DNA of 64,000 bases from Cymbidium sinense (taxonomy: Eukaryota > Streptophyta > Magnoliopsida > Asparagales > Orchidaceae), in NCBI GenBank assembly GCA_021442155.1, contig CM038214.1, positions 137,616,040 through 137,680,039 on the forward strand, read 5' to 3'. The notes beneath the pieces are model-generated. The model saw nothing but the letters and a program-made list of their open reading frames with translations. It was not told the DNA's origin and ran no database searches. Positions 4,931-43,625 of the stretch are shown here, in pieces. Position numbers and translations under genes: made by a program. How positions within the stretch are numbered: position 1 is the stretch's first letter; each line of letters starts with the position of its first letter.

Positions 4931-6324
<1,394 letters not shown>

Positions 6325-6427
6325 AAACACTAAACCATAAATCCTAAAACCTAAACCCTAAACCCTAAAACTAACCTTAAACCTACAACCCTAAACCCTA
6401 GACCAAGCCTAAACCTATAACCCTAAA
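6325..6427 (-). repeat. short interstitial telomere-like tract
   Basis: About 100 bp of CCCTAAA and variants (CCTAAA, CCATAAA, CCTTAAA) on the + strand, so TTTAGGG on the minus strand, the sense strand of Tat copy A. It abuts the archaeal-type RNase H of copy A at 6427. The minus strand reads GGTTACCATTTA shared with copy B (24125-24136), then GGGTTATAGG instead of the RNase H continuation. The break falls on TTTA, which is itself part of the telomere word. Confidence 0.85.
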
Positions 6428-16962: not shown

Positions 16963-17388
16963 GAATGGGCGTAACCTGAACAATAATGTCAACCAGCTCA
17001 CCCAGATCTAGGAGGAAAAGTGAGAAGGTGGTTTTATAGTGTGGTGGCACAATGTGAGGTCGTGATATGGAGGTGGTTGTTAGAGCAAGGGTGCTTACTG
17101 AGGTGGGAGGAGCCAGAGGTTACAACTGGTGGAGATGGAGATATGATGGTGGATCCCGCCACTGAGAGGTCGGTAGTTTTGATGGGAACTGAGAATCAAT
17201 AACGCCCAATCCGCTTATGGAATTGTGTCTTTATAGTAGAGACAGTTCTAGTTAACTAGGGTTTTTGATTTATTCTATGCATGCTCATTTTTTGATCTAT
17301 GTCATCACTTGTGTCTTAGAAAAGTTGGTGTGTTACATGGTTGATAAAATCTAAAAGAAGAAATCTCAAATTGTTCTCTAAAAAAAAT
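16963..17388 (+). pseudogene. glycine-rich RNA-binding protein 3' fragment, copy 1
   Basis: The fragment starts GAATGGGCGTAACCTGAAC right after CCCTAA. It reads as the end of the RRM (a decayed 'NGqNLdgrnItVNeAQ' with the Glu codon now CAG, followed by a stop), then a decayed Gly-rich domain (GYNWWRWRYDGGSRH, SFDGN), then 3' UTR with TGCATGCTCATTTTTTGAT and TATGTCATCACTTGTGTC. It ends in TTCTCTAAAAAAAA before CCCTAAA resumes. It is the complement-oriented counterpart of the copies in arrays 2 and 3 and is the most degraded. GRP7/GRP8-type proteins bind RNA through one RRM; here the RRM start is absent, so this is a gene fragment. Confidence 0.75.
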
Positions 17389-18653
17389 AAACCCTAAACT
17401 AAAACCTGAAGCCTCAACCTAAAACCTAAACCCTAACCCTAAAACCCTAAACCCTAAAAAACCCTTAAACCTAAACAAAACCTAAACCCTAAACCCTAAA
17501 CCCTAAACCCTAAACCACCCTAAACCCTAAACCCTAAATCAGAAACTAACCATAAACCTAAAAAAGCTAAAACCTAAACCTTACCTAAATAAAACCTAAA
17601 AATAAAATTAAAAAAATTTAAACCAAAATAAAATAAATAAAGACATAAACTAAAACCTATACCTAAAAAAAAAAAATAAAAAAATAAAACTAAACTAAAA
17701 TAAAATAAATAAAAACATAAACTAAACAAAAAATAAAAAATAAAAAAAAAATTAAAACTAAACTAAAAATAAACCTAAAATAAAATAAAATGAAACTAAA
17801 TAAAAACCTAAACCTAGAAAGCAAACCTTGAAATAAAACCTAAACATAAATAAATATAAAACCTAAACCCTAAACTAAAGAAAACTAAACCTCAAAAAAT
17901 AAAATAAACCTAAACCTAAACTAAAATAAACTAAATTAAAATAAATAAAACCTAAACCTAAACCTAAAATAAACATAAACATAACTACTAAACTAAAATA
18001 AAATAAATAAAATAAAATTAAACCTAAACTAAAACATACACCTAAACTAAATAAAATAAAATTAAACCTAAACTAAAACATAAACCCAAAAATAAACCTA
18101 AAATAAAATTCTAAAATCTAAAAAAATAAAAATAAAATCTAAACCTAAACTTAAAAATAAAAAATAAAACTTTAAAATAAAAAATAAAATAAAAATAAAG
18201 CTAAACTAAAAAAAACCTAAACCTAAACATAAGCTAAGAGAATAAACTAAAATAGAAAACATAGACTAAAATAAATAAGCCTAAAATAAATAAACTAAAC
18301 TAAATAAAAATAAAAATAAACTTAAATAAAAATAATAAATAAATAAAAAATAAACCTAAACATATTGGTTTACTTAATTTAAAAAAAAATAAAAATAAAA
18401 AAATAAAAAAACCTAACCCTAAACACTAAACCCTAAATCCTAAACCTATAACCCAAAACCCAAACCCAAACCTAAACCCTAAACCCTAAATCAAAAAACC
18501 AAAAAATCTAAAACCTTAAATAAAACCAAAAAAATAAAATAAATAAAAAAACTACACTTAAATAAAATAAAAAAACCTAAAATAAAATTGAAACCTAAAC
18601 CTAAAAGTAAAATAAAATAAAAACTAAAAACTAAACTAAAATAATAAAATAAA

Positions 18654-18866
18654 GATTTAGATACATAATGCATTTAATATATATTTCATCAAACTTTAAT
18701 ATTTACAAAACTAGCACTTTCCCATGCATAAAAGGTGCATTTCACTTAGAAAAGTAACAAGGGTGGTATTTTGATGTAATAATAAAGATTTAGGTGGTAT
18801 TTAAGTAAAAATTAAAGTTTGGGTGAAATATGTAAATGCATAAGAATTGCATGGTATGTATAAATC
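18654..18866. mobile_element. MITE-like inverted-repeat insert in array 1
   Basis: The only non-telomeric insert in array 1 other than the GRP piece. The left end GATTTAGATACATAATGC and the complement of the right end (GATTTATACATACCATGC) match. The match continues, with small gaps, through ATATTTCA..CAAACTTTAAT.TTTAC, giving imperfect terminal inverted repeats of about 45-50 bp in a 213-bp element. No clear target-site duplication can be seen in the repetitive flanks. No coding capacity. Confidence 0.55.
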
Positions 18867-19125
18867 CTTTAAAATAAACCTAAAATAAAATACCTAAATA
18901 AAATAAACCTAAATGTAAAATAAAATAAAATGAACCTAATGTAAAATAAAAACTAAATAAAAACCTAAACCTAAAAAATAAACCCAAAAAAAGTAAATTG
19001 AATAAACCAAACCTAAACCAAACCTAAAACTAAACAAAATAAAATAAACTAATTAAAATAAGCTAAACTTAAATAAATAAAACCCAAACATAAACATATA
19101 AATTGCTAAACCCAATTAGTTTAGG

Positions 19126-19796: not shown

Positions 19797-19896
19797 NNNN
19801 NNNNNNNNNNNNNNNNNNNNNNNNNNNNNNNNNNNNNNNNNNNNNNNNNNNNNNNNNNNNNNNNNNNNNNNNNNNNNNNNNNNNNNNNNNNNNNNN
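19797..19896. other. assembly gap (100 N)
   Basis: Exactly 100 N, the usual scaffold placeholder. It lies between array 1 with copy A (minus) and copy B (plus), so their relative orientation and distance are not proven by sequence. Confidence 0.99.
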
Positions 19897-25665: not shown

Positions 25666-25936
25666 TGTGTTTAGGGTAGGTGTAAGGAACCCTAGCGGGG
25701 TCCTATCCTTCATCAACATAGCACAAATATAACTTACACATAAACATATAAAAAAAACACATATCTTTTATATGGCAACTCTGAGTTGAGATAACACCCC
25801 GAGAAACACTCACACAATAGTTGCTCTAGGTGAAGCTAACATGTCTACCCTAAATGTGTCACCCTAGTGGTCTTCTTACTTTGGAGGATGTAAGTTTATT
25901 GTGCTTTTCTTTCTTACTTGGCCAATGGACAATATA
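25666..25936 (+). other. 3' untranslated region of copy B
   Basis: It begins after the integrase stop with GGGTAGGTGTAAGGAACCC. It includes GGCAACTCTGAGTTGAG (25774), also present in copy F at 29428, and one unit of the 3' satellite (GAGGATGTAAGTTTATTGTG... CTTGGCCAATGG). Copy F has many such units; copy B has one. Confidence 0.7.
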
Positions 25937-26175
25937 ATATACTAAAACATTTCAATAACATCCAAAAACATATCACTACATGATCAAATATATGATGTCA
26001 TATTATAAAATAATATATAGTATTATAATATGATTTAGGGTTGGGTTTTAGGGTATTCAAATCTCTAATAGTCAAGGGAAAGTCTCTTGAAGACATTTTC
26101 TTTAGCTACATAACTATGTTAGATTAGGTCATTCTTTAGATCTTCCTAATGACATCTCTATTCAAGATTTAGGTT
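25937..26175 (+). repeat. conserved 3' flank preceding array 2
   Basis: Near-identical by eye to 33108-33325. Shared words include AATATACTAAAACATTTC, GGGAAAGTCTCTTGAAGACA and TAGATTAGGTCATTCTTTAG. Within it, a single GATTTAGGGTATT in copy F is GATTTAGGGTTGGGTTTTAGGGTATT here, so a TTTAGGG seed has expanded. Telomere-like DNA starts directly after it in both places. Confidence 0.85.
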
Positions 26176-26392
26176 TAGGGTTTAGGTTTATGATTTATTA
26201 TTTAGGGTTGATTTAGGGTTTAGGATTTAGGGTTTAGGGTTTAGGGTTTGGGTAGGGTTTGGGTTTGTAGTTTAGGTTTGGGGGGTTTAGTTTAGGTTTA
26301 GATTTAGGGTTTTAGGTTTAAGGTTTAGCATTTAGGGTTTAGGGTTTAGGTTTTAGGTTTAGGATTTAAGTTTTAGTTTAGGGTTTAAGGTT

Positions 26393-26845
26393 TTTTTTAA
26401 TAAAGAATAAATTCATATTCAACATTTCTTCTTTTTGATATCATCAACCAAGTGGCACCCCAGGATTTTTAAGTCACAAGCGATGACATAGATCAAAGAT
26501 AAGCACCCATAGAGCAAAACAAAAACCCTAGATAAGTAGAATTATCTCTACTCTAAAGACATAGTTCCATAAACAAAGATCAATCATCCATTCTTCACCA
26601 CCGCCTCGAGTAGCGGTCCCCTCATATCCTCGATCTCCCTCTACCACCACCACGATCGTAACCTCCATCGCTCCTCCTGCCTTCATAACCACCACTATTT
26701 CAAACACCACCTCTATATCCACCAGCACCTCTAGATCCCCCACCACCATTATGATAACCGCTGCCTCTACCTTCACCTCCACCATTAAATCTGGACTGAA
26801 CCTAGTTGACGATGATGTTCTTGCCATCAAGGTTCTATCCATTCT
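26393..26845 (-). pseudogene. glycine-rich RNA-binding protein 3' fragment, copy 2
   Basis: The minus strand starts after CTAA with GAATGGATAGAACC. It reads NLDGKNIIVN, a stop where the family has Glu, then VQSRFNGGGEGRGSGYHNGG, GGSRGAGGYRGGV and, after another stop, NSGGYEGRRSDGGYDRGGGR. 'NGqNLDGkNItVNeAQSR' followed by a Gly/Tyr/Arg-rich tail is the end of the RRM and the start of the Gly-rich domain of plant GRP7/GRP8-like proteins. The 3' UTR (GCTTATCTTTGATCTATG, TATGTCATCGCTTGTG) follows and ends in an A-rich tail (TTATTAAAAAAAA in complement) touching the array. The RRM start and promoter are absent. Confidence 0.85.
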
Positions 26846-27764
26846 TAGAATTTAGGGTTAGTTTAGGGTTTAGGGTTTGGGGAGCTATGTTTGTGGTTTA
26901 GGATTTAGGGTAGTGTTTAGGCTTTAAGGTTTAGGGTTTAGGGTTTAGAGTTTTAGGTAGGGTAGGGTTTAGGTTTAGGGTGGGTAGTTTAGGATTTAAG
27001 GTTTATGGTTTAGAGTTTAGGATTTAGGTTTTAGGGTTTTTAATTTAAATTAAGTGAAACTTGGTTTAGGTTTATTTAGTTTATTTAATTATTTATTTAT
27101 TTATTTGAGTTTATTTTATTTTTATTTTTATTTAGGTTTATTTTATTTAGTTTAATTATTTGAGGTTTATTTTATTTTACTTTAGTTTAGTTGAGTTTAT
27201 TTTTATTTTATTTTAGTTTGGTTTTATTTTATTTTAGTTTAGTTTAGGTTCTTTTAAATTTTAGGTTTAGGTTTTAGGTTTTATTTTGGCAATTTTAGGT
27301 TTTATTTTATTTTAGGTTTAGGTTTATTTTAGTTTATTTTATTTTATTTAGGTTTAGTTTAGTTTAGTTTATCCAAGTTTAGGTTTAGGTTTATTTATTT
27401 TAGTTTAGGTTTAGTTTATTTTATTTTGTTTACTTTATTTTTATTTTAGGTTTAGGTTTTAATATTTATTTATTTTTATTTTATTTTGTTTGTCTTTAGA
27501 TTAGGTTTTAATTAGTTTTATTATATTTTCTTTTTATTTTATTTTATTTATGTTTTTTTATTCTTAGGTTTATTTTATTTTTAATTACTAGTCTTTTATT
27601 TCTTTTTTTAGTTTTTTTTAATTTTAGGTTTAGTTTTAGGTTTTATTTTATTTTTATTTTACACCGATTTAGGCATAGGTTTTATTTATTTATTTTAGGT
27701 TTTATTTACTTATTTAGTTTTAATTTTTTTAGGCCTAGGGTTTAGGTTATAGTAGGGTAGTAGG

Positions 27765-28120
27765 GTTGTGGCCCAGGATTTTAGGGAAGATCAGCCAGGT
27801 TTGGTGGCTCAGTTAGTGTTTGGCTCAGGGTTTGTGGTTTATCAACGCCATTTAGGGCCTTTGGGTCAACCAAGGCCGAGGGATAGTTTTTCTGGCTCAG
27901 CCTTCAGGGCTCAGGGTTTTAGGCCTAGGATTATGGCCTGGCTCAGGTCAGGGTCTTTAGGTCAGCCAGGGCTTAAGGTTGGCTCAGTGGCCTGGGCCGG
28001 GCCAGTGGGGGCTCAGGGTCAGGCTCAGTGGCCTAGGGCTCATGTAGGGCCTAGTTAGTGGGGTTTAGGATCCAGCTCAGTGTTTAGGGCTCAGGGTCAG
28101 GGTCCAGTTGCAAAGATTGG
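27765..28120 (+). repeat. GC-rich telomere-variant island in array 2
   Basis: GGCTCAGGG, GGCCTAGGG, GTCAGGG and CAGGGCT words replace TTTAGGG, as if T had changed to C within the repeat. It lies about 920 bp to the right of GRP copy 2. The 96-codon open frame here (27768-28058) is a repeat translation. Similar islands lie at 36440-36800 and 40730-40985. Confidence 0.75.
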
Positions 28121-28726
28121 TTTAGGGTTTTGGGCTAGGGTTTTTTATCTTTAAATACCAAACCCCAGTTTAGGTTTATTTAGCCTATTTTAGTCTATTT
28201 TTATTTATCTTTTATTTTATTTTTTTTATTTTATTTAGCTCATTTTATTTTATTTAGGTTTTATCTTTAGTTTTATTTTAGGCTCAGTTTAGGTTTAATT
28301 TTTTTTTTTAGTTTCAGGTTTTAGGTTTTATTTTTTAGGTTTAGGTTTTAGTTTTTTATTTTAGGTTTATTTCAGTTTTTTTATTAGTTTATGTTTAAGT
28401 TTATTTTAGTTTATTTTATTTATTTAGCTTGTTTACTTTATTCTTTAAGTTTAGGTTTTGTTTTATTTTAGTTTGTTTAAGTTTATTTTATCTTATTATT
28501 TTAGGTTTAATTTTAGGGTTAATTTATGTTAGGTTTAGGGTTTAGGGTTTAGGTTGAGGTTTAGGGTTTTTTAGAGTTTAGGATTGTAGGTTTAGGGTTT
28601 TGGGTTTAGGTTTGTTTATTTTGGGTTTTGGGTTTTGGGTTAATTTTATGGTTTGGATTAGGTTTTAGTTTATGGTTTGTTTTAGGTTTAGGGTTGGGGT
28701 TTAGGTTTAGGGTTTAGGGTTATAGG

Positions 28727-29431
28727 ATGAGAACCAAGATCGAGAAACTAGATACGGCCATCAATGATATCAAAGATTTCATGGATACTTAGTGATGCCA
28801 CCAATGTCAAATACATGGTGTGGTCCTACACCAACCACCCAGCATTCTACATCCTACATCGACCTCATGGTCATTCGAGTGTTGGGGTACTACATAGTGG
28901 GTCCGATTGATCCTTTTCTTCCAAGGGTCATCTCATCTTTACCACTACTACTTTTTCAAAAGCAAGGCTATTCGCTCACAGATCACCAACATATGGTCTA
29001 GTTTTTTTAGGAACCATATCGTATTAGGTTCAAAGTGCCTTGATGAATTATATTTGATAATGGTAATGCATTCAAGAGCACCGAGATCAACAAATTTTCT
29101 CAGAGACATAGCATAGATTGGAGATATTCTACCATCAACTACTAGAGGAGAAATGGCTTAGCAGAAGCATTCAACAAAACTCTCATCCAAATACTAAAGA
29201 AGACACTCGACAATAACAAGCAATAGTGTCATGATAGTTGATGTCTTATGGGATTCCGCAAGACATATAAAACTCAACTCGCCTACTCCTTTCTCCAATG
29301 TAAGTTTTTCTACCATTAAAGTCCAACTCCCATCACTAGAGATAGTTGTGGGTAGCAAAATCATAATAGAGTAGAATGCCAAGTTCTGGTTACAAGAGCT
29401 TGAAGGTTTGGAGGAGAGACTCCTGCAGGCA
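28727..29431 (+). pseudogene. integrase fragment, Tat copy F
   Basis: Collinear with copy B 24555-25302. It starts at the zinc domain (GATGCCACCAATGTCAAATA..), then a degraded core with ECWG-type box (VIRVLGYYIVGPIDP), FDNGNAFKSTEINKF (catalytic Asp kept) and NGLAEAFNKTLIQILKKTLD (catalytic Glu kept), with stops between. At 29428-29431 (GGCA) it jumps to sequence matching copy B 25774, so the last ~475 bp including the C-terminal domain are deleted at a 4-bp microhomology. Array 2 abuts it on the left. Confidence 0.85.
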
Positions 29432-31110
29432 ACTCTGAGTTGAGAAAATGCCCACAACGACACTCTCAAGAGTCTGTGCTACCCCTACTAGTGTGTCATC
29501 CTAGTGGTCTTCTTGCTTTGGAGGATGTAACTCTGCTACACTTTCCTTCTTTACTTGGCAACTATACATCAATGAGCACTTGGTTAGTTTGGTAGGCCTT
29601 ACTACATGGCTAGTAAGCTACCTCATGTTGGCTTAGTTTAAGAGAATGTGAGTCTGCTATGCTTTCTTCTTGGATTGGCCTTTGTGCACTCACTAAGTCA
29701 AGTATATTTGAGGTTTAGGATAAGTCTCCTAGTGGGTCCATCCCTCCTAACTACTCCAAATCTGGGTCTAGTCCTTCCTCGGGGCTCCTCGCTTAGTAGT
29801 CACTCTAGCTTAGATAGAATATGTCACACCGATGATAATCTATCCTAATGATCAGTTCTGTCAAGAAAATTGTAAGCCTACAAACTTTCTTTCTAGATTG
29901 ATTATTGCACACTGACAGGCACTTTAGGTTGGTTGGTTCTTACTATGCTGACGGATACACCACGCATGCTGACGGATACACCTTAAGTTGGTTGGTTCTC
30001 AAACCTTAGGATACACCATTCATGGTAGATATAAGTCTGCTATGCTTTCTCCTTGAGTTGGCCACCGTACACTTATTGGCCTTCTTTTCCAGGGCTTAGA
30101 TAGCCCCCTAGCAAGACCTCTCCTGTGGGCACTTTCTTTGGATCACATCCAGGACTCAATTTATACACTAGGTTACTATATTGGACAATCCCTTTTCTAA
30201 ACCACCCATTATTGGAGAATCAATCTTGTGGATGTGTAGATTCTTCCTTGGTCCAAGAATTTGAGATAAAGGTCAAGCCTAGCTTTTGGTACCTCGCACA
30301 CCAACAGGGTCCACAAAAACATATAAACAAAATATATATTCACTTGTGGATTAGGAGGACACCCCTAGTGGTACCTTTTCTCAAGTAGGTATCTTATCTT
30401 CAAGGCGTGTCAAGAAACTCCCTGGAATTTCTTACTACTCATGAGATATATAAGTCCTCACATTCACTCAATACCCCTCATTTGATGTTCTACTAAGTCA
30501 CCCCAGTTGTTCCCCGCTTAAAATGTAAGTCGCTATGCCTTCTTCCTAGCTATCAGACACAAAAGGCAACCCCTTTGGTTGATTAGCTCTACCCCACGGC
30601 CAGTAGACTATCTCTTTGGATTTGTAAATCTGAGATAGACAAGTCCGATAGAACCCCTTCTCAGTGGGTCCATCGCATACCTACATAGTCCATAAATTAA
30701 ATCTATCAAATTTGACTAAGCTCACATAATCGATATGCCCTCAAAATCAAACTAAACCAAACAAACCATATCAAATCACATGAAATTAAGATATATAATT
30801 AACTACTTGAGTTGACATAAGTCCCTAGCGGCATTCACTCAAGAGTCTCCCCAGTTCAATTTATTATGCATCCAAGGTCACCTCTCCCTTTTGGAAGATG
30901 TAGGTATGCTATGCCTTCTTCTTAGCATAGTCGTTGCACACCGAAAGGAAACCCCTTATGTTGGCTAGCTCTACCCGCAGCCTATAGACTATCCCTTTGG
31001 ATTTGTAAACCTGAGGTAGGTCAAGGTTGATATAGCCCCTTCTTAGTGTGTCCATCGCACATCGACAGGATCCATACATTAACTCAAATTAAATTAAACT
31101 CAATCTGATT
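29432..31110 (+). repeat. 3' satellite of copy F (degenerate, variable unit 120-490 bp)
   Basis: The unit core GTAAGTCTGCTATGCTTTCT / CTTGG.TTGGCC.TTGCACACT begins near 29527, 29649, 29872, 30032, 30525 and 30899. Fuller units also hold TTGGTTGGTTAGCTCTACC, GACTATC.CTTTGGATTTGTAAA and CCCCTTCT.AGTGGGTCCATC. It is variable-length through internal deletions and non-coding. A single unit is in copy B (25880-25925), and diverged units lie in copy D (about 49600-50450, minus). Confidence 0.75.
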
Positions 31111-31739
31111 TTCCCTAGTGGAGTTAAATCACACCTTCTTCCTAGTGGATCCACAAATCATATAGAAACAAGTCACGCAAACAAATCAAATTCAAAACTA
31201 ACCTCTCTAGTGGAGCCAAATTAAACCAACTCCCCCAGTAGCAACTAAATCAAAGAAATCCAACCAAACTCTTATCCCCAGCGGATACTTTGGCAAACAT
31301 GTCTATGAAATCAAACTAAATCCCAATCCACAGCGGATAGCTCGAACCTACTTTAGTTATGGAAGGTTCATATACTGGATCCCTAATGGACTCGAGCCCA
31401 TATCTTAAGTAGATATGCCTCCACATTAATTAAAATAAAACAAATTAAAGTTGATTCGATCTTAATCTCTGGTGCATTATAGATTCTTATCCCTGGCAGA
31501 TCTTCATTCCACAAATCATATAATCAAATTAAATTCAAACCTTATCCCCAGTAGATTTTCTTCTTCTATGGCCTCAACATAGACCCTCACATGTCATGTC
31601 CGATGCATGTGTGATCCCTTAATAGATCTCCTCCATGTCTTTGACATGAAATTCTCATCAAATCTTATGTCTTCTTATGCACCTTTAATACTTCAACTAA
31701 AAGCCTAACAAAGTGTATTCATTCAAATTACATCATCTT
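31111..31739 (+). other. 3' region of copy F, non-coding
   Basis: Non-coding DNA with short recurring phrases (CCCTAGTGGAGTTAAATC, CCAGCGGATA, CTTATCCC.AG.GGAT). It matches the complement of copy D near 49140-49560, for example ATGGAAGGTTCATATACTGG here and its complement at about 49210, which shows that both are the same 3' region. Confidence 0.65.
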
Positions 31740-32160
31740 AACATTGTAATCAACATTTTATGATTTTGATGGTGCAAGCTCAAACTAACTATACAATATC
31801 ATGCTAAACATATAATAGTGTGAATTAACACACTATATTATATTATAATATATGATGTTATATTATAATTTGCTATAATATAATATATTGTCTAACATTA
31901 CACCTCATTAGAATCACTTAAAATGAACAAATAACAAATTTTTTTCAATATATGACTAATGTTCATGTTGGAAGAAAATTGTTATTTTTCTATTAGAAAT
32001 GCTACAAAATAGCATAATTTTGGTGTTTTCTTGGTGCCGTGAATTTGGCCAAACTCTTCCATCTCAACTTTCAAATTAATATTTTTATGAGTTTTGACCC
32101 AATGTATTATAACAAAAGTAAAACATACTAAAATGTATAATAATATTTAGTAACACAAAC

Positions 32161-32226
<66 letters not shown>

Positions 32227-33107
32227 GTTATATTGTTATGTACATTATATTTTAATATGCTTTCATATAATATATTATCTTACATTGCAAATTAAAATGA
32301 ATCACTTTAATAAAAAAATTTATAAAATCTGGTTGAGAAATGAATATTTATTTTGGATGCAAAATTCCATTCTTTTGATTAAATGACACACCATAGCACA
32401 CCCCCAGTGATGTTCCTTAAAGCTTACCTTAAATTTGGCCAAATCTCATCATCTCAACCTGTAAATTTGTATGTATATGAATTATACCAGTACAAAATCT
32501 ACTACATCATACTATAATAAACTAAAATATGCTAAACAACAAGTATTAATACACAATAGTATGCTATAATGCATGATGTTATACTATTTTATGGTATCCT
32601 ATATTATAATACATTATAACATATTATATTATTTTATATTATATTGCATATCACATCACAAGGGATTGCTTAAGATAAAAATCATAAAATTAGTCTAAAT
32701 AATAAAAAAAACTATATATTTTAGTCATATCACTCACATATTTTAAATTGAAAAAATATATTATGATGTCATGCTCTACCTATTATGAATTTGTCCATAT
32801 TTCACCATTTTAAAGTCTAAATCAATATTTTTATAAATAATGCTAGTGTAGGCTCGACTGCATGATTCTAAAATACTAAAAGAAATTAAAATGCGCAGAA
32901 TAATATATTATGTTATATGATGTTATGCTATGCTACAACATATAATATTTATTTTGAACATAAAATCTTACTTTTTAGACTACAAGTGGCGTAGCACACC
33001 TTTGGTACTACAACCTAATTCCAACTTCAAATTTAACAAGTATCATCATCTGATTTATTAAATATATATTTTTATGATTTATATTAATATAGACTATAAG
33101 GCACAAT
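31740..33107 (+). repeat. AT-rich tandem repeat (~350-390 bp unit) in copy F 3' region
   Basis: The phrase AATTTGGCCAAA.CTC (or degraded) followed by ATC.TCAACTT..AAAT..ATATTTTTATGA appears near 32046, 32434, 32787 and 33033 (spacing 388, 353, 246). ATGATGTTATACTAT and TAATATATT segments lie between. The last unit merges with the conserved flank at 33108. Confidence 0.7.
32163..32223. repeat. (TA)n microsatellite, ~60 bp
   Basis: Uninterrupted TA dinucleotides within the AT-rich tandem repeat. Confidence 0.97.
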
Positions 33108-33325
33108 ACCATAATATACTAAAACATTTCAAAACATCTTATAACATCCAAAAACACATCACTACATGCTCAAATATATGATGCTACATTATACTATAAT
33201 ATATGGTATTATAATATGATTTAGGGTATTTAAATCTCTAATTCTGGGAAAGTCTCTTGAAGACATTTCCTTTAGCTATAAGTATAGATTAGGTCATTCT
33301 TTAGATCTACCTAATGATGTCTTTA
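33108..33325 (+). repeat. conserved 3' flank preceding array 3
   Basis: Second copy of the segment at 25937-26175 and the direct entry into array 3. It keeps a single TTTAGGG where the other copy has an expanded run. Confidence 0.85.
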
Positions 33326-33610
33326 TCAATGTTTGGAGGTTTAGGTTTTTTTAGTTGGGGCTTGGGGTTTGTGGGTTGGGTAGGAGGTTTATGATTTATG
33401 GTTTTAGGGTTTAGAGTTTAGTATTAGGGTTTAGTTTAGGTTTAGAGTTTGGGGTTTAGGGTTTATGTTTAGGGTTTAGGTTTAATGTGGTTTAGGTTTT
33501 AAGGTTTAGGGTTTTGGTTTAGGATTTAGGGTTAAAGAGGGTTTAGGGTTTAGGGTTTTGGTTTGTCTAGGGTTTAAGTTTTAGTTTAGATTTAGGTTTA
33601 GTGGTTTAGA

Positions 33611-33967
33611 GGAGTACCTCAAGTTTTCTAAGACATAAGCAATGACATAGATGAATAATGAGCACCTATAGAGCAAATGAAAAACCCTAGATAAGTAGAA
33701 CTATCTCAACTATAATGACCCGCCTTCTCGAGTAGTAGGATCCGCCATCATATCCCCGATCTCTCCCTTGGCCAACACCATCATTGTAACCCCTGTCACT
33801 CCTCCTGCCTCCAAATCCACCGCTACTCCGACCACCACCTCCATATCCACCAGCACCTCTAGATCCCCCACCACCATTATGATAACCACCACCACCGTCC
33901 TTGCCTCCACTGCTAGATCTAGATTGAGCTTAGTTGACGATGATGTTCCTGCCGTGCCCTCCCATTC
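33611..33967 (-). pseudogene. glycine-rich RNA-binding protein 3' fragment, copy 3
   Basis: The minus strand starts CCTAA-GAATGGG, then GRNIIVN, a stop in place of Glu, AQSRSSSGGKDGGGGYHNGG, GGSRGAGGYGGGGRSSGGF and GGRRSDRGYNDGVGQGRDRG. This is the cleanest Gly-rich reading of the set. The 3' UTR is present as far as TATGTCATTGCTTATGTC, but the A-rich end is replaced by array sequence, so it is 3'-shortened. Confidence 0.87.
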
Positions 33968-35090
33968 TTAGGTTTAGGGTTGGTAGGGTTTATAGTTTAG
34001 GGTTTAGGATTAAGGGTTAGTTTAGTGTTTGGGGTTTAAGGTTGGGGTTGTAGGTTTTAGGGTTTAGGGTTGGGGTTAGTAAGGTTTAGGTTTAGGTTTA
34101 GGGTTTACGATTTAGGGTGGGTTTAGGGTTTATGGTTTAGTGTTAAGAGTTTAGGGTCAGATTGGGTCAGGTTTAGGGTTAGTTTTAGGTGTGGATTTAG
34201 GATGGTTAGGATTTCTTTAAATTAAGCAAACCATAGGTTTAGGTTTATTTAGTTTATTTAGTTTATTTTATTTATTTGACTTTGTTTTGGTTTTATTTTA
34301 TTTAGGTTTATTTTATTTTTTTTATTTAGTTTTATTTATTTATTTTAGGTTTATTTATTTTAGTTTAGGGTTTTATTTGAGTTTTATTTTTATTTTTTTT
34401 TAGTTTAGGTTTTTATTTTTATTATTAGTTTAGGTTTTTTTATATATTTTTCAGGTTTAGGTTTAGGTTTATTTTTTAGGTTAATTTTTAGGTTTTATTT
34501 TTTTGTTTAGTTTTAGTTTATTTTAAGTTTATTTTATTTTATTTTAGTTTATGTTTAGGTTTAGGTTTTAGTTTATTTTAGGTTAGTTTAGGTTTTATTT
34601 ATTTTAGTTTAGTTTATTTTAGTTTTTTAGGTATATTTTATTTTATTAGGTTTAGGTTTTTTTTTTTTTAGTGTTTAGGTTTATTTTTATTTTTTTAGGT
34701 TTTATTTTTTTTGTTTATTTTAGTTAGTTATTATTTTATTTTATCTTTATTTTAAGTTTAATTTTTATTTTATTTAGGTTTTTTATTTTTTAGTTTAGTT
34801 TAAGTTTTTATTTATTTTATTTAAGTTAAGTTTTTTATTTTTTATTTTATTTTCTTTTTAGGTTTAGGTTTAGGTTAGGTTTTAGTTTATGTTTTTATTT
34901 TATTTTTGTTTTGGTTATTTTATTTATTTTATTTTTAGGTTATATTTAGTTTAGGTTTAGGTTTTAGTTTTTAGGGTTTATTAGGTTTAATGTTTAAGAT
35001 TATTTTAATTTTTTAGGGTTTGGGGTTTATGGTTTAGGTTTAGGATTTAGGGTTTAGATTTTAGGTTTAGGGTTTAAGTTTTAGTTTAAG

Positions 35091-35489
35091 TAGCACCCTA
35101 AGTTTTCTAAGGCACAAGCGATGACATAGATAAAAAATGAGCACCCATAGAGAAAATAAAAAACCCTAGATATGTAGAATATGTAAGGACACGCATAAGT
35201 AGTGATGGATCGATCTTTCTTCTCCAATTCCCATCAACTAACCCTCGAGTAGTGGGATCTGCCATCATATCCCTGATCTCTCTTTCCGCCACCACCACAG
35301 TTGTATCTCTGACTCTCCTCCTGCTTAGATAACCACCACTTCTCCGACCACCACCTCCATATCCACAAGCACCTCCACATCCCTCACCACCACTACGATA
35401 ATTTTTGCCTCCACCTTCGCCTCCACCAACAGATCTAGACAAAGCCTAGTTGATGGTGATGTTCTTATCATCAAGGTTCTGCCTATTAT
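35091..35489 (-). pseudogene. glycine-rich RNA-binding protein 3' fragment, copy 4
   Basis: The minus strand reads NLDDKNITIN, a stop, then ALSRSVGGGEGGGKNYRSGG, CGYGGGGRRSGGYLSRRR. After a frameshift come decayed GYDGRSHYSR and DGNWR. 'DGNWR' near the C-terminus matches plant GRP7-like proteins. The upstream junction is CCCTAA-TAATAGG, a mutated form of the shared GAATGGG junction. The 3' UTR with GTGCTCATTTTTTATC and CATCGCTTGTGCC follows. Confidence 0.85.
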
Positions 35490-36439
35490 TAGGGTTTAAG
35501 GTTAGTTTAGGGTTTAGGGTTTAGGGTTACTTTAGGCTTTAGGGTTTAGGGTTTGGGATTCATTTAGGGTTATAGGTTTTAGGGTTTAACGTTTATAATT
35601 TAGGGTTTAGAGTTTTATGTTTAGGGTTTAGGGTTCAGGATTTAGGATTTTAGGGAGTACGATTTAGGGTTTAGGGTTTAAGTTTAATTTTAGGGTTTAG
35701 GACTTATGGTTTAGGGATGTTTTTTTTAAATGAAGCAAACTGGTAGGTTTAAGTTTATTTAGTTCAATTTTTATTTATTTGAGTTTATTATTTTTTATTT
35801 AAGTCAATTTCTTTATTTAGTTTAACTTATTTATTTTATATTTATTTATTTTAGTTTAGGTTTTTATTTTAGTTTATTTATTAGGTTTAGGTTTATTTTT
35901 TAGTTGAGTTATATTTTTATTTTATTTTTTAGGTTTAAGTTTTACTTTTTTGTTTAGGTTTAGGTTTAACTTTATATTTTTAATTTTTTTAGGTTTAGGT
36001 TTTAGGTTTTTATTTTAGCTTTATTTTAGGTTTTAATTTTTTAGTTTAGTTTATTTCTTTAGTTTATTTTATTTTATTTAAAATTAGGTTTAGGTTTAGG
36101 TTTTTTTTATTAGTATAGTTTATTTTAGATTAGTTTATGTTTATTTTATTTTATTTATTTTTTTTTATTTATATATTTTTTAGTTTAGGTTTAGGTTTTA
36201 TTTATTTTTTATTTATTTTTTATTTTATTTTTATTTATTTTTAGGTTATTTTTTAGTTTATTTTTTTATTTTATTTATTATTTTATTTTATGTTTATTTT
36301 ATTTACATTTAGTTTTTATTTAGGTTTTTTATTTATTTTTATTTAGTTTAGTTTATTTATTATTTTAATTTTACTTTTAAAGTTTAGGTTTAGGTTTTAT
36401 TTATCCAGGTTTATGTATTTATTTATTTTATATTAAGTT

Positions 36440-36800
36440 TATTAGAGGTTTAGGTTAGGTTATTAGGGCCCATAGTTAGTGGCCCAGGTTAGGCCCAGGA
36501 CTAGCCTTTGTGGGCCCAGGTCCAGCCTCAGGGCCTAGGGTCTGAAGGGCCTGAGGGCCCAGGGTCAGCTTAGGGCGCAAGGGGTGGCCTAGGGCCTAGA
36601 CCTCAGTGGCCTGGGCCTTTGATCCAGGGTTTAGAGCCCAGTGTCAGCTCAGTGGCCTGTGTAGGTTGTGAGGTCAGGGCCAGGGCCCAGGATCTAGAGT
36701 AGGCCAGGGTCAGCCTGGGCTGGCAGTGTAGGTCAGAGGTTGGTGTAGCTCATGGTTTTGGTGCAAGTGGGTCATGGGTTTAGGTCATACTTAGGATTTA
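36440..36800 (+). repeat. GC-rich telomere-variant island in array 3 (first)
   Basis: GGGCCCAGG, GGCCTAGGG and GGTCAGCC words. It begins about 970 bp right of GRP copy 4. Confidence 0.75.
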
Positions 36801-37556
36801 GGTTAGTTTAGTGGTGTCAGGTTAGGGTTTATTTATTTATTTAAACAAGCAAAGGTTTTTAGCTTTATTTAATTTATTTTATATTATTATTTTATTTTTT
36901 TATCTTTAGTTTATTTTTTTATTTATTAGTTTATTTATTTTAAGTTTATTTTAGTTTATTTTTTAGGTTTAGGTTTTATTTTATGTTTTAATTTAGTATT
37001 TTAATGTTCTTTTTAGTTTTAGGTTTATTTTAAGTTTCTTTTATTTTATTTAGTTTGGTTTGATTTGTCTTTAGTTTTGGTTTTTTTAATTATTTTAGTT
37101 TAGGTTTATTTTATTTTTAATTAAGGTTTAGGTTTTTTTAGTTTAGTGTTTAGGTTTTATTTTTTATGTATTTTCAAGTTTTATTTTTATGTTTATTATT
37201 TAGGTTTAAGTTTTTATTTAGTTTTACTTTTATTTTACTTTAGTTTTATTTTATTTTTATTATAGGTTTCATTTTTATTTTATTTAGGTTTTTTATTTTT
37301 AAATTTAGTTTGGTTTTTATTTTAGTTAAATTTTAATTTTACTATTATTTTTTTAGGTTTAAGTTTAGGTTTATATTTAGGTTCAGGTTTTAGTTTACAT
37401 TTTTATTTTATTTTATTTTAATATTATTTTTTTTAGATTTTTTTTTTATTTTATTTTTAGGTTTTATTTAGTTTAAGTTTAGGTTTTTAGCTTTTTTGGG
37501 TTTAGGATTTAGGGTTTTAGGATTTAGGGTTTAGGGTTCAGGTTTTTGTCTTGGGT

Positions 37557-37605
37557 TATTTTTTAATGGAGAACAAATTCAGAATCAACATTTCTTTTTT
37601 TGATT
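37557..37605 (-). pseudogene. GRP fragment remnant (3' end only)
   Basis: GGAGAACAAATTCAGAATC and AACATTTCTTTTTTTGAT match the extreme 3' end of GRP copies 2 and 5 (AGAGAAAAAATTCAAATTC, AACATTTCTTTTTTTGAT). The rest is missing and TTTATTTTA repeats continue. Confidence 0.65.
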
Positions 37606-39326
37606 ATTTAGTTTATTTTTTATTTATTTTAGTTTAGTTTATTTTTTATTTTTATTAATGTTTAGCATTTATTTTTATTTAGTTTAGTTTATTTATTTTA
37701 TGTTTATTTATTTTAGTTTATTTTTTAGGTTTAGGTTTAGGTTTAGGTTTATTTTTGCAGTTCAGTTTTATTTTTATTTTTTTTTAGATTTAGTTTTATT
37801 TTTATTTTTTAAATTTAGGTTTAGGATTTTGTTTTATTTTAAGTTTAGGTTTTAGGATTTTATTTTAGCTTTATTTTGTGGTTTTTTTTTTTAGTATTTT
37901 TAAGTTTATATTATTTAGTTTTGGGTTAAGGTTTTGTTTATTTTAGGTTTAGGTTTAGTTTTGTATTTTAGTTTATTTATTTTAGTTTTTAGTTTATTTT
38001 ATTTTATTTTATTTTAGGTTTTGTTTTTTAGTTTAGGGTTTAGGTTTTTTAATTATTTATGTTTGTTTTACCACCATTTATGTTTAGATTTTATTTAGTT
38101 TTATTTTATTTTAGGTTTATTTTATCATTATTTTGGTTTAGTTTTATTTTATTTTGGTTTATTTATTTTATTTAGTTTAGGTTTTATTTATTTTATTTTA
38201 GTTATTTTTTTTTACTTTCTTAGGTTTAGGTTTTATGTTTTATTTTATTATTTTATTTTATTTTATTTTGGTTTTGAGTTTATTAGTGGTTAGTTTAGAG
38301 TTGTAGGTGTAGGGTTTAGGGAGGGGTTTAGTGGTAGTTTTTAGTTTAGGATTAGCTTCAGGTTTAGGCTTGTTAGTGGTTTAGTTTTAGTTTTAGTTTT
38401 AAGTGAATAAATGATTAAATATTTCTTCATTTAAATTTTAGTTTTTTTTATTTATTTTTATTTTTATTTAATTTTTATTTAGTTTATTTTATTCATTTTA
38501 GGTTTATTTATTTTAGTTTAGGTTTTTTTTTAGTTTATTTTTTTTATTTTTATTTAGGTTTATTTTTTATTTTATTTAATTTAGTTTATTTTTTCTTTAT
38601 TTTTCAAGTTTAGGTTTTATTTTTTATTTTTAAGTTTAGGTTTAGGTTTTTAGTTAATTTTTTTAGGTTTAGGTTTGGTTTCTAATTTTGGTTTTACTTT
38701 TTAGGTATTGTTTATTTTATTTTAGTTTATTTTATTTTATTTAGTTTAGGGTTTGGTTTAGTTAATTTTTAGGTTTAGTTTTATTTATTTTAGTTTAGTT
38801 TACTTTAGTTTAGTTTAGGTTTATTTTATTTTGTTTATTTTATTTTATTTTAGGTTTAGATTTTTTTAGTTTAGAGGTTTTATTTTACTTATTTCTGTTT
38901 TTTTTAGGTGTATTTTAGGTTTAGGTTTTATTTAGTTTTAATAAGTTTATTTGAGGTTTATTTTATTTTATTTTACATTTAGTTTTTATTTTGTTTAGGT
39001 TTATTAAGCTTAGGTTTATTTTATTTTTTAATTTAGTTTAGGTTTTTATTTATTTTATTTTAGTTCACTTTTATTAGTTTATTTTATTTTATTTTTAGGT
39101 TTAGGTTTTAGTTTTAGGTTTTTGTTTTATTTTATTTTTTATTTTTTTATTTAGGTTTAAGTTTTTTTATTTATTTTATTTTTAAGGTTTGGAGTTTAGG
39201 TTTTAGGATTTAGGGTTTAGATTTTAGGGTTTAGGGATTAGGGAATATGGTTTTTTGGGTTTAGGGTTTAGGGTTTAAGTTTTAAATTTACGGTTCAAGT
39301 TTTAGTTTAGGGTTTAAGGTTTATAG

Positions 39327-39776
39327 TTTTTTTTTAATAGAGAAAAAATTCAAATTCAACATTTCTTTTTTTGATTTCATCAAACAAGTAACACACCAAG
39401 TTTTGTATGACACAAGTGATGACATAGATAAAAAATGAGCATGCATAAGGCAAATTAAAAACCTAAGATAACTAGAACTGCCTCTACTGAAGACACAGAT
39501 AAGCAACGATCGGATTCTTTATTTCTCCAGTTCCCATCAGAACCACCCCGACCTCTCGGGTAGCAGGATCTGCCATCATATCCCAGATCTCTCACTCCTC
39601 CACCACCACGGCTATAACCTCCTTCACTCCTCTTGCCTCCATAACCACCATTGCTCCGACCACCACCTTCATATCCACCCCACCACTAACCGTCGCCTCT
39701 GCCTTCCTCTCCACCGCTAGATCTACACTAAGCCTGGTTGATGGTGATATTCCTGTCGTCAAGATTCTACCCATTC
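39327..39776 (-). pseudogene. glycine-rich RNA-binding protein 3' fragment, copy 5 (fullest)
   Basis: The minus strand starts CCCTAA-GAATGGG and reads NLDDRNITINQA. The family Glu is Gln here (CAG), with a stop two codons later. A mostly readable Gly-rich domain follows: GGYEGGGRSNGGYGGKRSEG, GYSRGGGGVRDLGYDG, then YPRGRGGSDGNWRNKES. GGSDGNWRN is the usual C-terminus of plant GRP7-like proteins; the natural stop is now a Lys codon. The 3' UTR (TATGCATGCTCATTTTTT, TATGTCATCACTTGTGTC) ends in AAAAAAAAC at the array. Expression is unlikely: no RRM start and no promoter. Confidence 0.9.
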
Positions 39777-40729
39777 TTAGGGTTTAGGTTTAGGTTTAGA
39801 TTTATTAGGTTTTAGGGTTTAAGTTTATTTTTTAATTTATTTAGTTACTTTAGTTTAGGTTTAGGTGGGTTTAGGGTTTGTTTAGGGTTTAAGGCTGTTT
39901 AGGGTTTTAGAGTTTGTGATTTAGGGTTTATGATTTTAGGTTTAGGTTTGGGTTGTAGGTTGATTAGAGTGGGGTTTAGAATTTAGGGTTTATGGTTTTT
40001 AAATTAAGTAAACGAAAGGTTAATTTAGTATTTTTAATTTTTATTTATTTAGTTTATTTTATTTTATCTTGGTTTACTTTTTATTTTTATTTAGTTTAAT
40101 TTATTTATTTTGGCTTAGGTTTTTTATTTTAGTTTATTTTTTAGGTTTATTTTTTTAGTTCATTTTTATTTTTATTTTATTTTTTACATTTAGGATATAT
40201 TTTTTATTTTTAAATTTAGGTTTAGGTTTTAATTTAGTTATTTTTGTTTAGGTTTTAGGTTTTTATTTTAGTTTTATTTTGAGGTTTTACTTTTAGTTTA
40301 GGTTTAGGATTACATTTAGTTTATTTTAAGATTAGGTTTAGGTTGTATTTATTTTAGTTTATTCTAGTTTAACTTTAGATTTAATTTATTTAATTTATTT
40401 TATTTTTATTTTAAGTTTAGGTTTTTTTAGTTTAGGGTTTATCTTTTATTTTATTTATTTTTAGGTTTTATTTTAAGGTTTATTTTTAAGGTTTAGGTTT
40501 ATTTATTTTATTTTATTTTAATTTAGTTTATTTTATTTGTATTTTACATTTAGTTTTATTTATTTTTTTTATTCTTAGGTTCATTTTATTTTTAGTGAAT
40601 TTAGGTTTTATTTATTTTATTTTAATTTATTTTTTAGGTTTAGGTTTAGTGTTTTTATCTTATTTTATTTAGCTCTTTTTTATTTTATATCTTTTATTTA
40701 GGTTTTATTTTATTTCAGTTTAGGTTTTA

Positions 40730-40985
40730 GCCTAGGTTTAGGGTTTAGGGTTGTGGCCCAGGGCCCAGGTTAGGTTTGTGGCTTTAGGCTCAGCCTGTGG
40801 CCTTTGTGGCCTGGGGTTTAGCCTGGGGTTTAGGTTTAGTAGCAGGCCTGGCCTCAGTGGCCTGGTTTAGGCCCAGATCAGTTACCAGTAGCTCAGGGCC
40901 CAGGTCAGTGAGTTTAGGGCCTAGGGTCAGGTTTAGGCCATTTATGGTAGGGCCAGGATTTAGGGTCCAGGTAGATTAGGGTAGT
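40730..40985 (+). repeat. GC-rich telomere-variant island in array 3 (second)
   Basis: GGCCCAGGG, GGCCTAGGG and AGCCTGGGG words, about 960 bp right of GRP copy 5. The 60-codon frame at 40797-40979 is a repeat translation. Confidence 0.75.
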
Positions 40986-41508
40986 AGGTTTCTTTAATCA
41001 AACATACAGTTTAGTTTAAAGTTTATTTAGTTATTTTATTTATCTTAATTTATTTGATCTTTATTTATTTAGGTTTATTTTATTTAGTTATTTATTTTAG
41101 TTTATTTTATTTTAGTTTTATTTTAGTTTTATTTAGGTTTAGGTTAATGTTTATTTTTTCATTTTTTCATTTTATTTTATTTTTAGGTTTAGGTTTTCTA
41201 TATTTAGGTTTATGTTTAGGTTTTATTTTATTTTTCAGGTTAGGTTTTATTTTGTTTAGATTTAGGTTTATTTTTAGTTTATTTTATTTTATTTAGTTTA
41301 GGGTTTAGGTTTAGTTTAGTTTAGGATTAGGTTTAGGTTTTATTTAATTTAGTTTAGTTTATTTTAATTTATGTTTATGTTTATTTTATTTTGTTGATTT
41401 TAGGTTTAGGTTTTCTTTAAATTTAGGGTTTAGGTTTTATTTTTATTTATTTTAGGTTTATTTTTTAGGTTATGTTTTCTATTTAGTTTTTATTTTATTT
41501 AGGGTTTT

Positions 41509-42440
41509 GTGCCACCATCCTTCAAGATCTTTGATGATAATGAGAACCCACGATAACACATTGCACACTTAGAGCTGGCTGTTGCTACACCGGTGGAAGC
41601 AACACACTCCTCTTCCCTTTTCATTAGCCTATCAAGTGTTGCATTTGATTGGTACTGCCAAACTGCCCAATAGTTTGATGAAGAGTTTTGCTAAGTTGGA
41701 GCTCATCTTCATCAAGAGGTTTGTTGGAGCTCAGCAGAGGGTGACTGTAGGAGACCTCATTATATAGAAATAGAAACTCAATGAGTCCCTTGTTGATTAC
41801 ATTCTCAGGTGGCACAACTTGAGCATAAAATGTGAACCACAACTGTCTGAACAGCATGCCATTGAGATTCTTCTCAAGAATTTCTGTGGCCCGATTGCCA
41901 TCATGCTTAAGGGCTTTATAATCAAAACATTCGAGAAATTAATCAACAAGGCGGATAGCCTACAAGAGGAAGCCAAACAGTTGCCCTTTCTAGGCCAACC
42001 ATCTAGGCCTAAGCCGCAAAAGGTGTTTGAGAGGAAGCCAGGGACAGTTGTGTCATTGGACAGAGGGAAGCAGCCAGCCAGAGTTCAATATGAGAGACTA
42101 TGAGCTCAGGAGCCGCCTTTTCCACCTCCTCTTCCACCACCTCGGCCATCATATTGACCACCGGAGTCGCCACAATGAACATTTCCACCTTAGCGCCTAC
42201 CCAAGATCATTCATATTCCTTGCTAGGTAGCTACTTTCCACCTACTCTTGATGATAGATTGAATAAGCCATATTCATTTAAAAGGGAGGTAGTTAGGAAA
42301 ATCTTTAAGAATCTTGTAAAGCAACCTAACTTTCAGTTTCAAGAGCTTAAGAGGCCGGAGGAAGTGGCAAGAGTGATGATCCTAGCTATTGCCCTACCAC
42401 CGTCTGTTAGGCCATGTCTTAGAGGATTATATCACTTTTA
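41509..42440 (+). pseudogene. gag capsid/nucleocapsid region, copy C
   Basis: It begins VPPSFKIFDDNENPR-stop-HIAH with AFDWYCQ (about 41647). After a frameshift come LMKSFAKLELIFIKRFVGAQ, KLNESLVDYILRWHNLSIKC and FEKLINKADSLQEEAKQLPF (to 42100). These are the ordered boxes of the plant retrotransposon Gag core ('FDWY', 'F..RF', 'esl.dYi.RW..Lsl.C'). After further shifts, 42250-42440 carries KPYSFKREVVRKIFKNL, LKRPEEV and a decayed YCPYHR...GH..EDY zinc-like motif. Gag would package element RNA; here several stops prevent that. Confidence 0.85.
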
Positions 42441-43145
42441 ATGATTAGCTTGAGCACAGCTACAAGTTGAGATCCATAGTTATCCCTAAGGAATACTTAT
42501 TATAGCAACCATCTAGTTCTATTAGAGTGATCCTTGGGGATACTAGCGATCCTCTTAAGACCAAAAAAGATTAGGATATCTTCCTATCTCAAGCATCTAT
42601 GAAAATCATTTCTAAGATCAAGAAGCTTTCCTTGTAGGTGCGTAAAGTATCTCAAACCTCCAACACTAAGGAAGGTTTGCTAGTTGCAAAGGATACCAAG
42701 TAGTAGCAGTAGCTCACCATACATGCCTGACATAGTCCAGAAGTGCAGCCACTATTCCAGTTCAATACTCCCTCTACCATTGCAGCTACCGCCTCTTCTG
42801 CTAGGTCCTCTTCTACCAATAGGAGCATTTTTTGTAGATAAGAGCACTAAATCCTTTACTTTGCTTACTTTACTTGATTTCTATCATGTACCTCCACCTA
42901 AAAATAAAGTAATAAAGAAAGCTGATTCTACTTTTATGTTGTTTACTTCTGATGCTGTTGATTTTATTCCTATTGAATGTTCTCTAAGTCAAAATAAAAA
43001 TAATAGCTCTAGTAGTTCTGATCCTTTCATTTCTGATTTAGAGTTGGATTATCCTTCTTTGAATCAATCGGGTTCAGCTTTTGAGATTGACTTGGAGTCA
43101 ACTATCTCTAATGATCTCATAGAAGTCGTGTATGCCAGCTGAAAA
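42441..43145 (+). pseudogene. gag-protease spacer, copy C
   Basis: A 152-codon open frame (42684-43142) is Ser/Pro/Leu-rich, then acidic (IPIECSLSQNKNNSSSSSDP, DLELDYPSLNQSGSAFEIDL). It lies between nucleocapsid and protease, where Tat polyproteins carry a variable, poorly conserved spacer. No enzymatic motif seen. Confidence 0.5.
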
Positions 43146-43625
43146 GGTAGAACTTTCCACAAGCTCATCGTTCCAATAAGTCACTTAACTCAACCTACGT
43201 AGTGAGAAAGTTCTACCTTCTAGGGTAGCACCTCAGGATAAGGGTAAGCAAGTCATTAGCTCTAGTGAGCAGATAGCCCCTCCGTAGGATACTCCACCCA
43301 TGGATATGCTTGTGGTGGACTAAGCCAAAATTGATTACAATGTCCTAGCTCACCTTAGAAAGTTTCTAGCTAAGTTAAGCATATACAATTCCCTTGTCTT
43401 ATCCAAAGAGATGAGCGAGTCACTAATCAAGGCCTTACTTGATCTAGAGATATGCTTAGCTCAACTGACCGTTACTAAAAAGGAGGCATGCCACTAAAAG
43501 GACATCTTAGGTATTATATTCAATGATGAATACTTACTCCTAGGTATGACCAAGCACAACCACCTCTTTACATTACAATGGATGTTGGCAGATATAGGCT
43601 ATCCAAAGTTTTGATTGACCCAGGC
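43146..43625 (+). pseudogene. retropepsin N-terminal half, copy C
   Basis: The + strand reads KIDYNVLAHLRKFLAKLSIY, LVLSKEMSESLIKALLDLEI, FNDEYLLLGMTKHN and, after a shift, YITMDVGRYRLSKVLIDPG. These are the lead-in and catalytic Asp (IDPG) of Tat-type proteases. The LGRPW half should follow within about 80 codons; instead block X starts (about 43626) and no LGRPW half is found in copy C. Confidence 0.75.

Follow-up and report, generated by a model that had tools for sequence, protein, structure and literature searches.

In plants, telomere-like repeats away from chromosome ends are often taken to mark a past chromosome fusion or the repair of a break. For their origin, satellite-like amplification and circular DNA have been discussed (PMC8621592, in excerpt). 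Tandem repeats are also known between pol and the 3' LTR of Tat retroelements (PMC11963269, PMC7004042 and PMC3305785, all in excerpt), a lineage of the Ogre/Retand type whose hallmark is an additional RNase H of archaeal type, located between RNase H and integrase (PMC6317226, in excerpt). In the genome examined here, a single family derived from retroelements appears to have scattered many such arrays, which would affect the reading of telomere FISH signals and of karyotype history. It would also allow the path from the 3' region of a retroelement to satellite-like arrays to be traced, with a gene piece captured along the way.

Arrays and element fragments in the window

The window, a stretch of 64,000 nucleotides, is taken from the 3.53-Gb genome of Cymbidium sinense (assembly GCA_021442155.1, CM038214.1, positions 137,616,040–137,680,039, forward strand). 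The sequence TTTAGGGTTTAGGG occurs in it 30 times, against 0 in 100 shuffles, with 12 occurrences on the − strand (6.3–18.5 kb) and 18 on the + strand (26.2–40.8 kb). The features are as follows.

6324–6427, − strand: short tract of TTTAGGG adjoining the aRNH end of element A
6424–15148, − strand: element A fragment with protease start, spacer X, RT region, RNase H and aRNH
15151–19100, − strand: array 1, TTTAGGG/TTTA-rich, with one GRP-like block at ∼16980–17364
19897–25665, + strand: element B with spacer X end, protease C-terminal half, RT region, RNase H (23166–23573), aRNH and integrase region (the last presumed from position and motifs)
25774–25931, + strand: seg2, a block of the 3' region after pol
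25924–26175, + strand: seg3, the segment directly before array 2
26164–28725, + strand: array 2, with TTTAGGG, GRP-like, TTTA-rich and GC-rich blocks
26401–26860, − strand: presumed GRP-like pseudo-exon (named from a motif) and the sequence next to it, on the strand antisense to pol
28726–29431, + strand: partial pol piece (equivalent to B 24554–25302) joined to the end of array 2
29428–33097, + strand: 3' region with a seg2-like block, repeated 3' UTR blocks to ∼31700 and an AT-rich region
33098–33341, + strand: second seg3 copy, before array 3
33331–41509, + strand: array 3, composite, with GRP-like blocks at ∼33616–33981, 35088–35504 and 39338–39792
41510–43513, + strand: gag fragment of element D, beginning at an internal motif
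43514–44266, + strand: protease start and first part of spacer X, broken off thereafter

Arrays 2 and 3 start behind the same segment, as a preliminary description of the locus had noticed; the two seg3 copies share 79% BLAST identity, at a K2P distance of 0.123 over 213 sites. Segments diverge to differing degrees, and no single date is therefore claimed for the joints; the AT-rich region is itself internally repetitive. That description was also right that TTTAGGG reads along the sense strand of the neighbouring element at every place it named, including array 1 and the tiny tract that adjoins the aRNH region of element A at 6424. A + strand TTTAGGG run at ∼19125–19290 adjoins array 1, itself on the − strand, and precedes an N gap of 100 bp at 19797–19896.

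The arrays are composite and not plain telomere-like DNA: TTTAGGG is combined with TTTA-rich and GGCCCAGG-rich (GC-rich) blocks and with five GRP-like blocks, and block order is preserved between arrays. The GRP-like block starts ∼290 bp past seg3 in both arrays that follow this segment (294 and 286 bp). These pieces lie antisense within the arrays and translate, in broken frames, as LDxRNITxNQA followed by Gly-rich sequence; by this motif they may resemble a glycine-rich RNA-binding protein (GRP) gene, in which the end of an RRM precedes a glycine-rich domain, and a PDB search with the translation returned a chance match only. The ends of the arrays differ by element position: array 2 ends at pol (28726, equivalent to B 24554), array 3 at gag (41510) and array 1 at the protease start (15148). 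Element F, also in the window, has pol and a 3' region with no array up to its cut-off.

The second RNase H of the Tat lineage is present, Pfam having identified RT_RNaseH at 23166–23573 in element B and RVT_3 at 52032–52394 in element F, with their order taken from the B/F alignment. The integrase pieces gave no Pfam match and are presumed to be such from position and motifs.

Joints at unlinked loci

At all 20 genomic loci fetched, seg3 passes into a TTTAGGG array at one fixed point (the seg3 query contained 12 array bases, a slight bias), and pol lies directly upstream of seg3, which was accordingly rejected as a monomer of the AT-rich region. Placement of the array downstream of pol in fixed order and orientation, the criterion of PMC7004042 (in excerpt), was thus found at 20 of 20. 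A GRP-like block follows the joint at 18 of these loci, and the partial pol piece that follows array 2 recurs at 14. The six loci without the pol piece are L014, where the fetched piece ends, L018, where polarity switches to the opposite, L019, where a few TTTAGGG units are followed by an inverted RT, and L020, L021 and L024. Array polarity is fixed overall, with 741 TTTAGGG vs 3 CCCTAAA in 45,449 array bases from the 20 loci.

Where it can be traced, units follow one another head to tail, in the order pol, 3' region, array, gag and again pol: a second copy of RT or integrase lies downstream at three of three probed loci, C1:52.05 Mb has this order on either side, and the second unit at C2 runs plainly from integrase region through 3' region, AT and seg3 to array. 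The single upstream probe at C2 (L036) holds X-like sequence only, with no array. A single tandem duplication of B, array 2 and C within the window was dropped as a candidate, the same order being present at unlinked loci, and independent insertions of elements into an old array were rejected because the joints recur.

An array lies immediately upstream of gag in all 17 copies examined (the window, L030, L032 and 14 probes), and at the two array-3 loci whose fetched pieces end in array a same-strand gag match follows 0.7 and 1.4 kb on (C1:33090784 and C1:285810665). Array 3 had been thought to end at the first codons of gag; it cuts into gag at an internal motif. The opening of the gag frame, PPSFKIFDDNENPRxHIAHLE, is presumably internal to Tat gag, and no start codon, PBS or LTR was found between array 3 and this motif, nor any Pfam match on the two gag pieces of element D. 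Four gag stop positions are each common to 10–12 of 12 copies; only that at 41554–41556, common to all 12, is counted, because the window gag frame has already shifted by 41774. With this shared stop, the unit made no gag of its own from that copy. In the three pol frames no stop is common to more than 6 of 16 copies, a pattern suggesting that pol may still have had open frames when the copies spread.

Self-comparison of the window yielded no LTR pair, and no LTR was found between an array and the next fragment in any piece read. A scan with five PBS 12-mers, allowing at most 1 mismatch, gave two isolated matches (exact but antisense within gag at window 42172, and with 1 mismatch at L025 8585) and none at the array/gag joint, on which ground the array as a conventional 5' LTR was rejected. 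No PPT or purine tract was found in L029–L032, L038 or window 24.4–46.1 kb; the preliminary description had suggested looking for both signals around the arrays. Because no LTR pair, PBS or PPT was found at the joints, and gag is cut at the array instead of beginning there, its placement of the array within an LTR position is unproven.

A gag 21-mer has 864 + 933 exact copies on the two strands of the genome (control, 0). Among the first 100 matches listed, the median spacing along C1 is 426 kb, on both strands, which fits a dispersed element; neighbours closer than 120 kb are on one strand in 16 of 19 cases and other neighbours in 37 of 80, and spacings among the close neighbours include 21.2, 22.1 and 22.3 kb. 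Copies on C1 span 0.09–372 Mb, and further copies lie on other contigs. No array-free copies with ordinary LTRs were found among the best 40 of 2531 and the best 40 of 5378 candidates, which are the closest relatives of the queries, and such copies may exist beyond them.

The observation that opened this work is thus partly confirmed. Its main inference, that the element family or a unit containing it carries the array, is largely right and partly supported: the joints recur at unlinked loci, from segment to array at 20/20, from array to gag at 17/17 and from array to partial pol at 14/20, with fixed polarity. Neither array-free copies with ordinary LTRs nor junctions confined to a single locus were encountered in the part of the genome examined.

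Origin and spread of the arrays

The arrays are on balance probably an inherited part of a decayed, high-copy Tat-derived (Ogre/Retand-type) family that spread as a head-to-tail chimera. The unit ends in 3' region, seg3 and a TTTAGGG-based composite array, after which the family resumes as a 5'-cut copy, with a pol piece behind array 2 and at an internal point of gag behind array 3; these joints recur at unlinked loci. A telomere-like tract and a GRP-like gene piece would have become linked, on a single occasion, to the downstream side of one element's 3' region. Through the array, recombination or template switching may then have fused it to 5'-cut copies, at the cost of the LTR, primer-binding site and gag N-terminus, to give the head-to-tail chimera. 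The dispersal of the chimera across the chromosomes would most likely be due to trans-mobilised retrotransposition of a larger unit with ends beyond the sequence read, and polarity-keeping recombination between arrays could have produced local head-to-tail clusters. The arrays would afterwards have diverged and changed length in satellite-like fashion. Counted against this explanation are the negative searches for an LTR pair in the window, a PBS at the joint and a PPT in the pieces scanned, the gag stop in 12/12 copies, the pol piece missing at 6/20 loci, L018, L019, L036 and element F. Joining head to tail via arrays instead of LTRs raises the question of how such units move.

The head-to-tail order at traceable loci, the same-strand clustering of close neighbours and their spacings, and the shared gag stop with neither PBS nor PPT found might also be expected if an LTR-less giant repeat of ∼22–30 kb per unit, joined by its arrays, had multiplied at the DNA level via circles, unequal recombination or segmental duplication. 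Exact gag copies at 426 kb median on both strands of C1 are, however, unlike a block-confined satellite, and this origin is a tentative second possibility. It is doubtful that the array took over the LTR role in an LTR-less Tat lineage, with homologous TTTAGGG arrays at both ends serving as terminal repeat for strand transfer or for recombination into existing arrays; if true, such a lineage would grow head to tail in one polarity and seed interstitial telomere-like DNA genome-wide.

Somewhat less probable still is an ordinary LTR retrotransposon with an array between pol and 3' LTR, of which only chimeras were encountered, their LTRs having been removed by inter-array recombination. The plain order of the second C2 unit, from integrase region to array, agrees with it, as do documented Tat arrays behind gag-pol in fixed order and orientation (PMC7004042, PMC11963269, in excerpt), but in the pieces read no array is separated from the following fragment by an LTR, and the array-to-gag joint is present in 17/17 gag copies. 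A chromosome-end or fusion relic invaded later by retrotransposons, which the preliminary description had already judged unlikely, would be permitted by interstitial TTTAGGG arrays at one locus alone and is made very improbable by joints recurring at many unlinked loci in one polarity. An assembly or base-calling artefact, for which the N gap and noisy AT- and GC-rich stretches might speak, is hardly credible given joints on many contigs with copy-specific differences and the block order kept between arrays.

Comparison with described systems

The arrays resemble those of Tat elements in lying behind pol in fixed order and orientation, in their variable length and in belonging to high-copy elements; antisense ORFs are reported in the array region of Retand, and near-gag arrays for Tat copies with large deletions (PMC11963269, PMC3305785, in excerpt). 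They differ in that a telomere-like unit is mixed with a GRP-like piece and joined to 5'-cut copies, with no LTR seen. Neither 'telomer' nor 'TTTAGGG' occurs in the available text of PMC11963269, 'telomer' occurs twice in that of PMC7004042 (one passage concerns a reference database), and a telomere-like, gene-fragment-bearing Tat array was not found in the portion of the literature covered.

Seed-plant interstitial telomere-like repeats are likewise of TTTAGGG type and away from chromosome ends, but no repeat-carrying retroelement is described for them in the available text of PMC8621592, where 'retrotransposon' occurs twice, both times in the reference list. MoTeR elements of the blast fungus share telomere-like tracts at element joints, truncated elements, multi-element arrays and recombination-driven change, but have telomeres as their insertion sites and are described as similar to site-specific elements that bear an endonuclease (PMC7367193, in excerpt). 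In place of the telomeric location and non-LTR-type RT of MoTeR, TRAS and SART, the family described here has a Tat-type pol with RNase H domains, and its copies lie along the chromosomes.

Composition of the arrays

Degenerate TTTAGGG sequence forms three long arrays and one short tract in the window, and the 14-mer TTTAGGGTTTAGGG occurs there 30 times vs 0 in 100 shuffles. As the preliminary description proposed, arrays 2 and 3 begin after one common segment, seg3, the copy before array 3 being designated seg3'.

6324..6427 (-), short tract
15151..19100 (-), array 1
25924-26175 (+), seg3
26164..28725 (+), array 2
33098-33341 (+), seg3'
33331..41509 (+), array 3
41510..43513 (+), gag of element D

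The array structure is composite: a ∼400-bp block, present in five copies within the window, is flanked on both sides by ∼200-bp TTTAGGG blocks, and TTTA-rich and in places GGCCCAGG-rich stretches come next. Translated on the strand opposite pol, the ∼400-bp block resembles, across disrupted reading frames, an RRM terminus with a glycine-rich domain, a motif that we take to be that of a glycine-rich RNA-binding protein (GRP-like); a PDB search with this block returned a chance match only. GC-rich GGCCCAGG/GGCCTAGG-like blocks in or beside the arrays (19280-19796, 27756-28160, 36460-36830 and 40740-40985) may stem from base-calling error. An AT-rich region (31700-33220), with long TA runs and internal repeats of 60–67 per cent identity, lies between the 3' UTR blocks and seg3'. 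A 100-bp run of N (19797-19896) separates array 1 from the downstream retroelement copy B, and because array 1 and its adjoining copy A are oriented opposite to what follows, this join may be a scaffolding choice.

Recurrence of the array joints

The source genome (3.53 Gb, 2174 contigs) was searched with seg3, giving 2531 first-look candidates, of which 40 were scored, each at least 89 per cent identical; 20 loci were fetched out of the 39 scored besides the window. In all 20, seg3 passes into TTTAGGG at the identical point with integrase-region sequence upstream, and the first eight array bases, AAGATTTA, are identical in 14, with small differences in the remainder. The GRP-like block lies downstream of seg3 in 18 of the 20 loci (absent at L019 and L021), and in 14 array 2 terminates in the pol piece that follows it in the window (28726). 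This piece is missing at L014, where the fetched sequence stops at 6762 bp, at L019, a rearranged locus whose array is broken off after a few units, and at L018, L020, L021 and L024. Two further arrangements were seen: at L018 (7500-9900) the array flips polarity and its GRP-like block is inverted too, departing from the head-to-tail order, and at L024 (1-1930) an array with a GRP-like block is joined upstream to mid-RT.

Four downstream pieces, taken at about +5 to +15 kb, all contain the 3' UTR blocks, then the AT-rich region, then the array, with seg3' in three (absent in L032). The far array end meets gag exactly at the equivalent of window 41510 in L030 and some 15 bases later in L032; the other two pieces stop within the array, with same-strand gag matches 0.7 and 1.4 kb further (C1:33090784 and C1:285810665). 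When the genome was searched with gag sequence free of array bases, 40 of 5378 first-look candidates were scored, and the array lies directly upstream of gag in all 14 of the scored ones that were probed, TTTAGGGTTTT being kept exactly at the joint in 10. The claim that the element, or a unit containing it, carries the array is thus borne out by the seg3–array joint at 20/20 fetched loci and the array–gag joint at 17/17 (14 probes, the window, L030 and L032), and that of fixed polarity by 741 TTTAGGG vs 3 CCCTAAA in 45,449 array bases from the 20 loci. Inherited along with the rest of the unit, the array links seg3 to 5'-cut copies.

Contig C2 shows the order X (a spacer), RT, integrase region, seg3, array 2, pol piece, 3' UTR, AT, seg3', array 3, followed by gag, protease, X, RT, integrase region, 3' UTR, AT, seg3 and array. 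A second RT lies downstream in all three loci probed, at start-to-start spacings of 28.4 kb (C2), 30.8 kb (C1:285) and 30.3 kb (C1:33); the single upstream probe, at C2, met X-like sequence only. Small probes gave the same order on both sides at C1:52.05 Mb, a locus from the gag list, and no clear order at C1:156.9 Mb.

Identity and decay of the retroelement

All element copies in the window are broken. Ten window pieces were scanned with Pfam: the piece spanning 23166-23573 contains RNase H domains, and that spanning 52032-52394, on the other strand, contains RVT_3 (archaeal-type RNase H, aRNH). Integrase and gag pieces had no Pfam match and are presumed to be such from position and motifs, as is the protease from motifs. 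Alignment of the copies puts aRNH between RNase H and the integrase region, an arrangement described in excerpts of PMC6317226 as a mark of Ogre and Retand.

The protease lies in two halves, the first directly after gag (window 43514; also L033) and the second near 21100-21300, separated by the ∼7 kb spacer X. Both copy A and L033 have the protease interrupted by X, which precedes RT in 18 of the 20 fetched loci. X may be an unusually long intron or an ancient insertion. Spacer X (15148-8725 (-), 19897-21060 and 58021-64000) contains tandem repeats of 167–177 bp. Element F (-), at 47900-51200, has pol and a 3' region, with no array before an X-type fragment of opposite sense at ∼49.0 kb.

Twelve gag copies, chosen for likeness to the window, are 86–94 per cent alike and all share a stop at window 41554-41556; gag was therefore probably already broken when the sampled set was amplified. 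In the three pol frames no stop is common to more than 6 of 16 copies. At a substitution rate of 1.3e-8 per site per year, the median integrase-region K2P of 0.082 (n = 21 copies) would correspond to very roughly three million years.

Spread of the unit and known systems

A telomere-like tract and a GRP-like piece may have become attached a single time, after which chimeras would have arisen through the array and dispersed. Dispersal by retrotransposition, probably in trans, is the tentatively preferred reading: an exact gag 21-mer occurs in 864 + 933 copies in the genome (reversed control 0), at a median spacing of 426 kb among the first 100 places listed, and this wide distribution on both strands favors retrotransposition over multiplication of the unit at the DNA level. 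The latter, less favored, is supported by the tandem order of units; among the same 100 places, 16 of 19 neighbors less than 120 kb apart share a strand vs 37 of 80 others. It is also supported by the stretches scanned, in which no LTR, no polypurine tract and, at the array–gag joint, no primer-binding site was found, a result that did not uphold the proposed LTR position of the array. In the boldest, and a less likely, reading the arrays would have taken the place of the LTRs.

Titles and abstract openings of the literature searched named no Tat element with a telomere-like array, which is no proof of absence. Arrays behind pol are already documented in Tat elements, in excerpts that describe their order and orientation as fixed (PMC7004042; PMC11963269; PMC3305785), and the arrays here are placed likewise. 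For the MoTeR elements, an excerpt of PMC7367193 describes telomere-like tracts where elements join.
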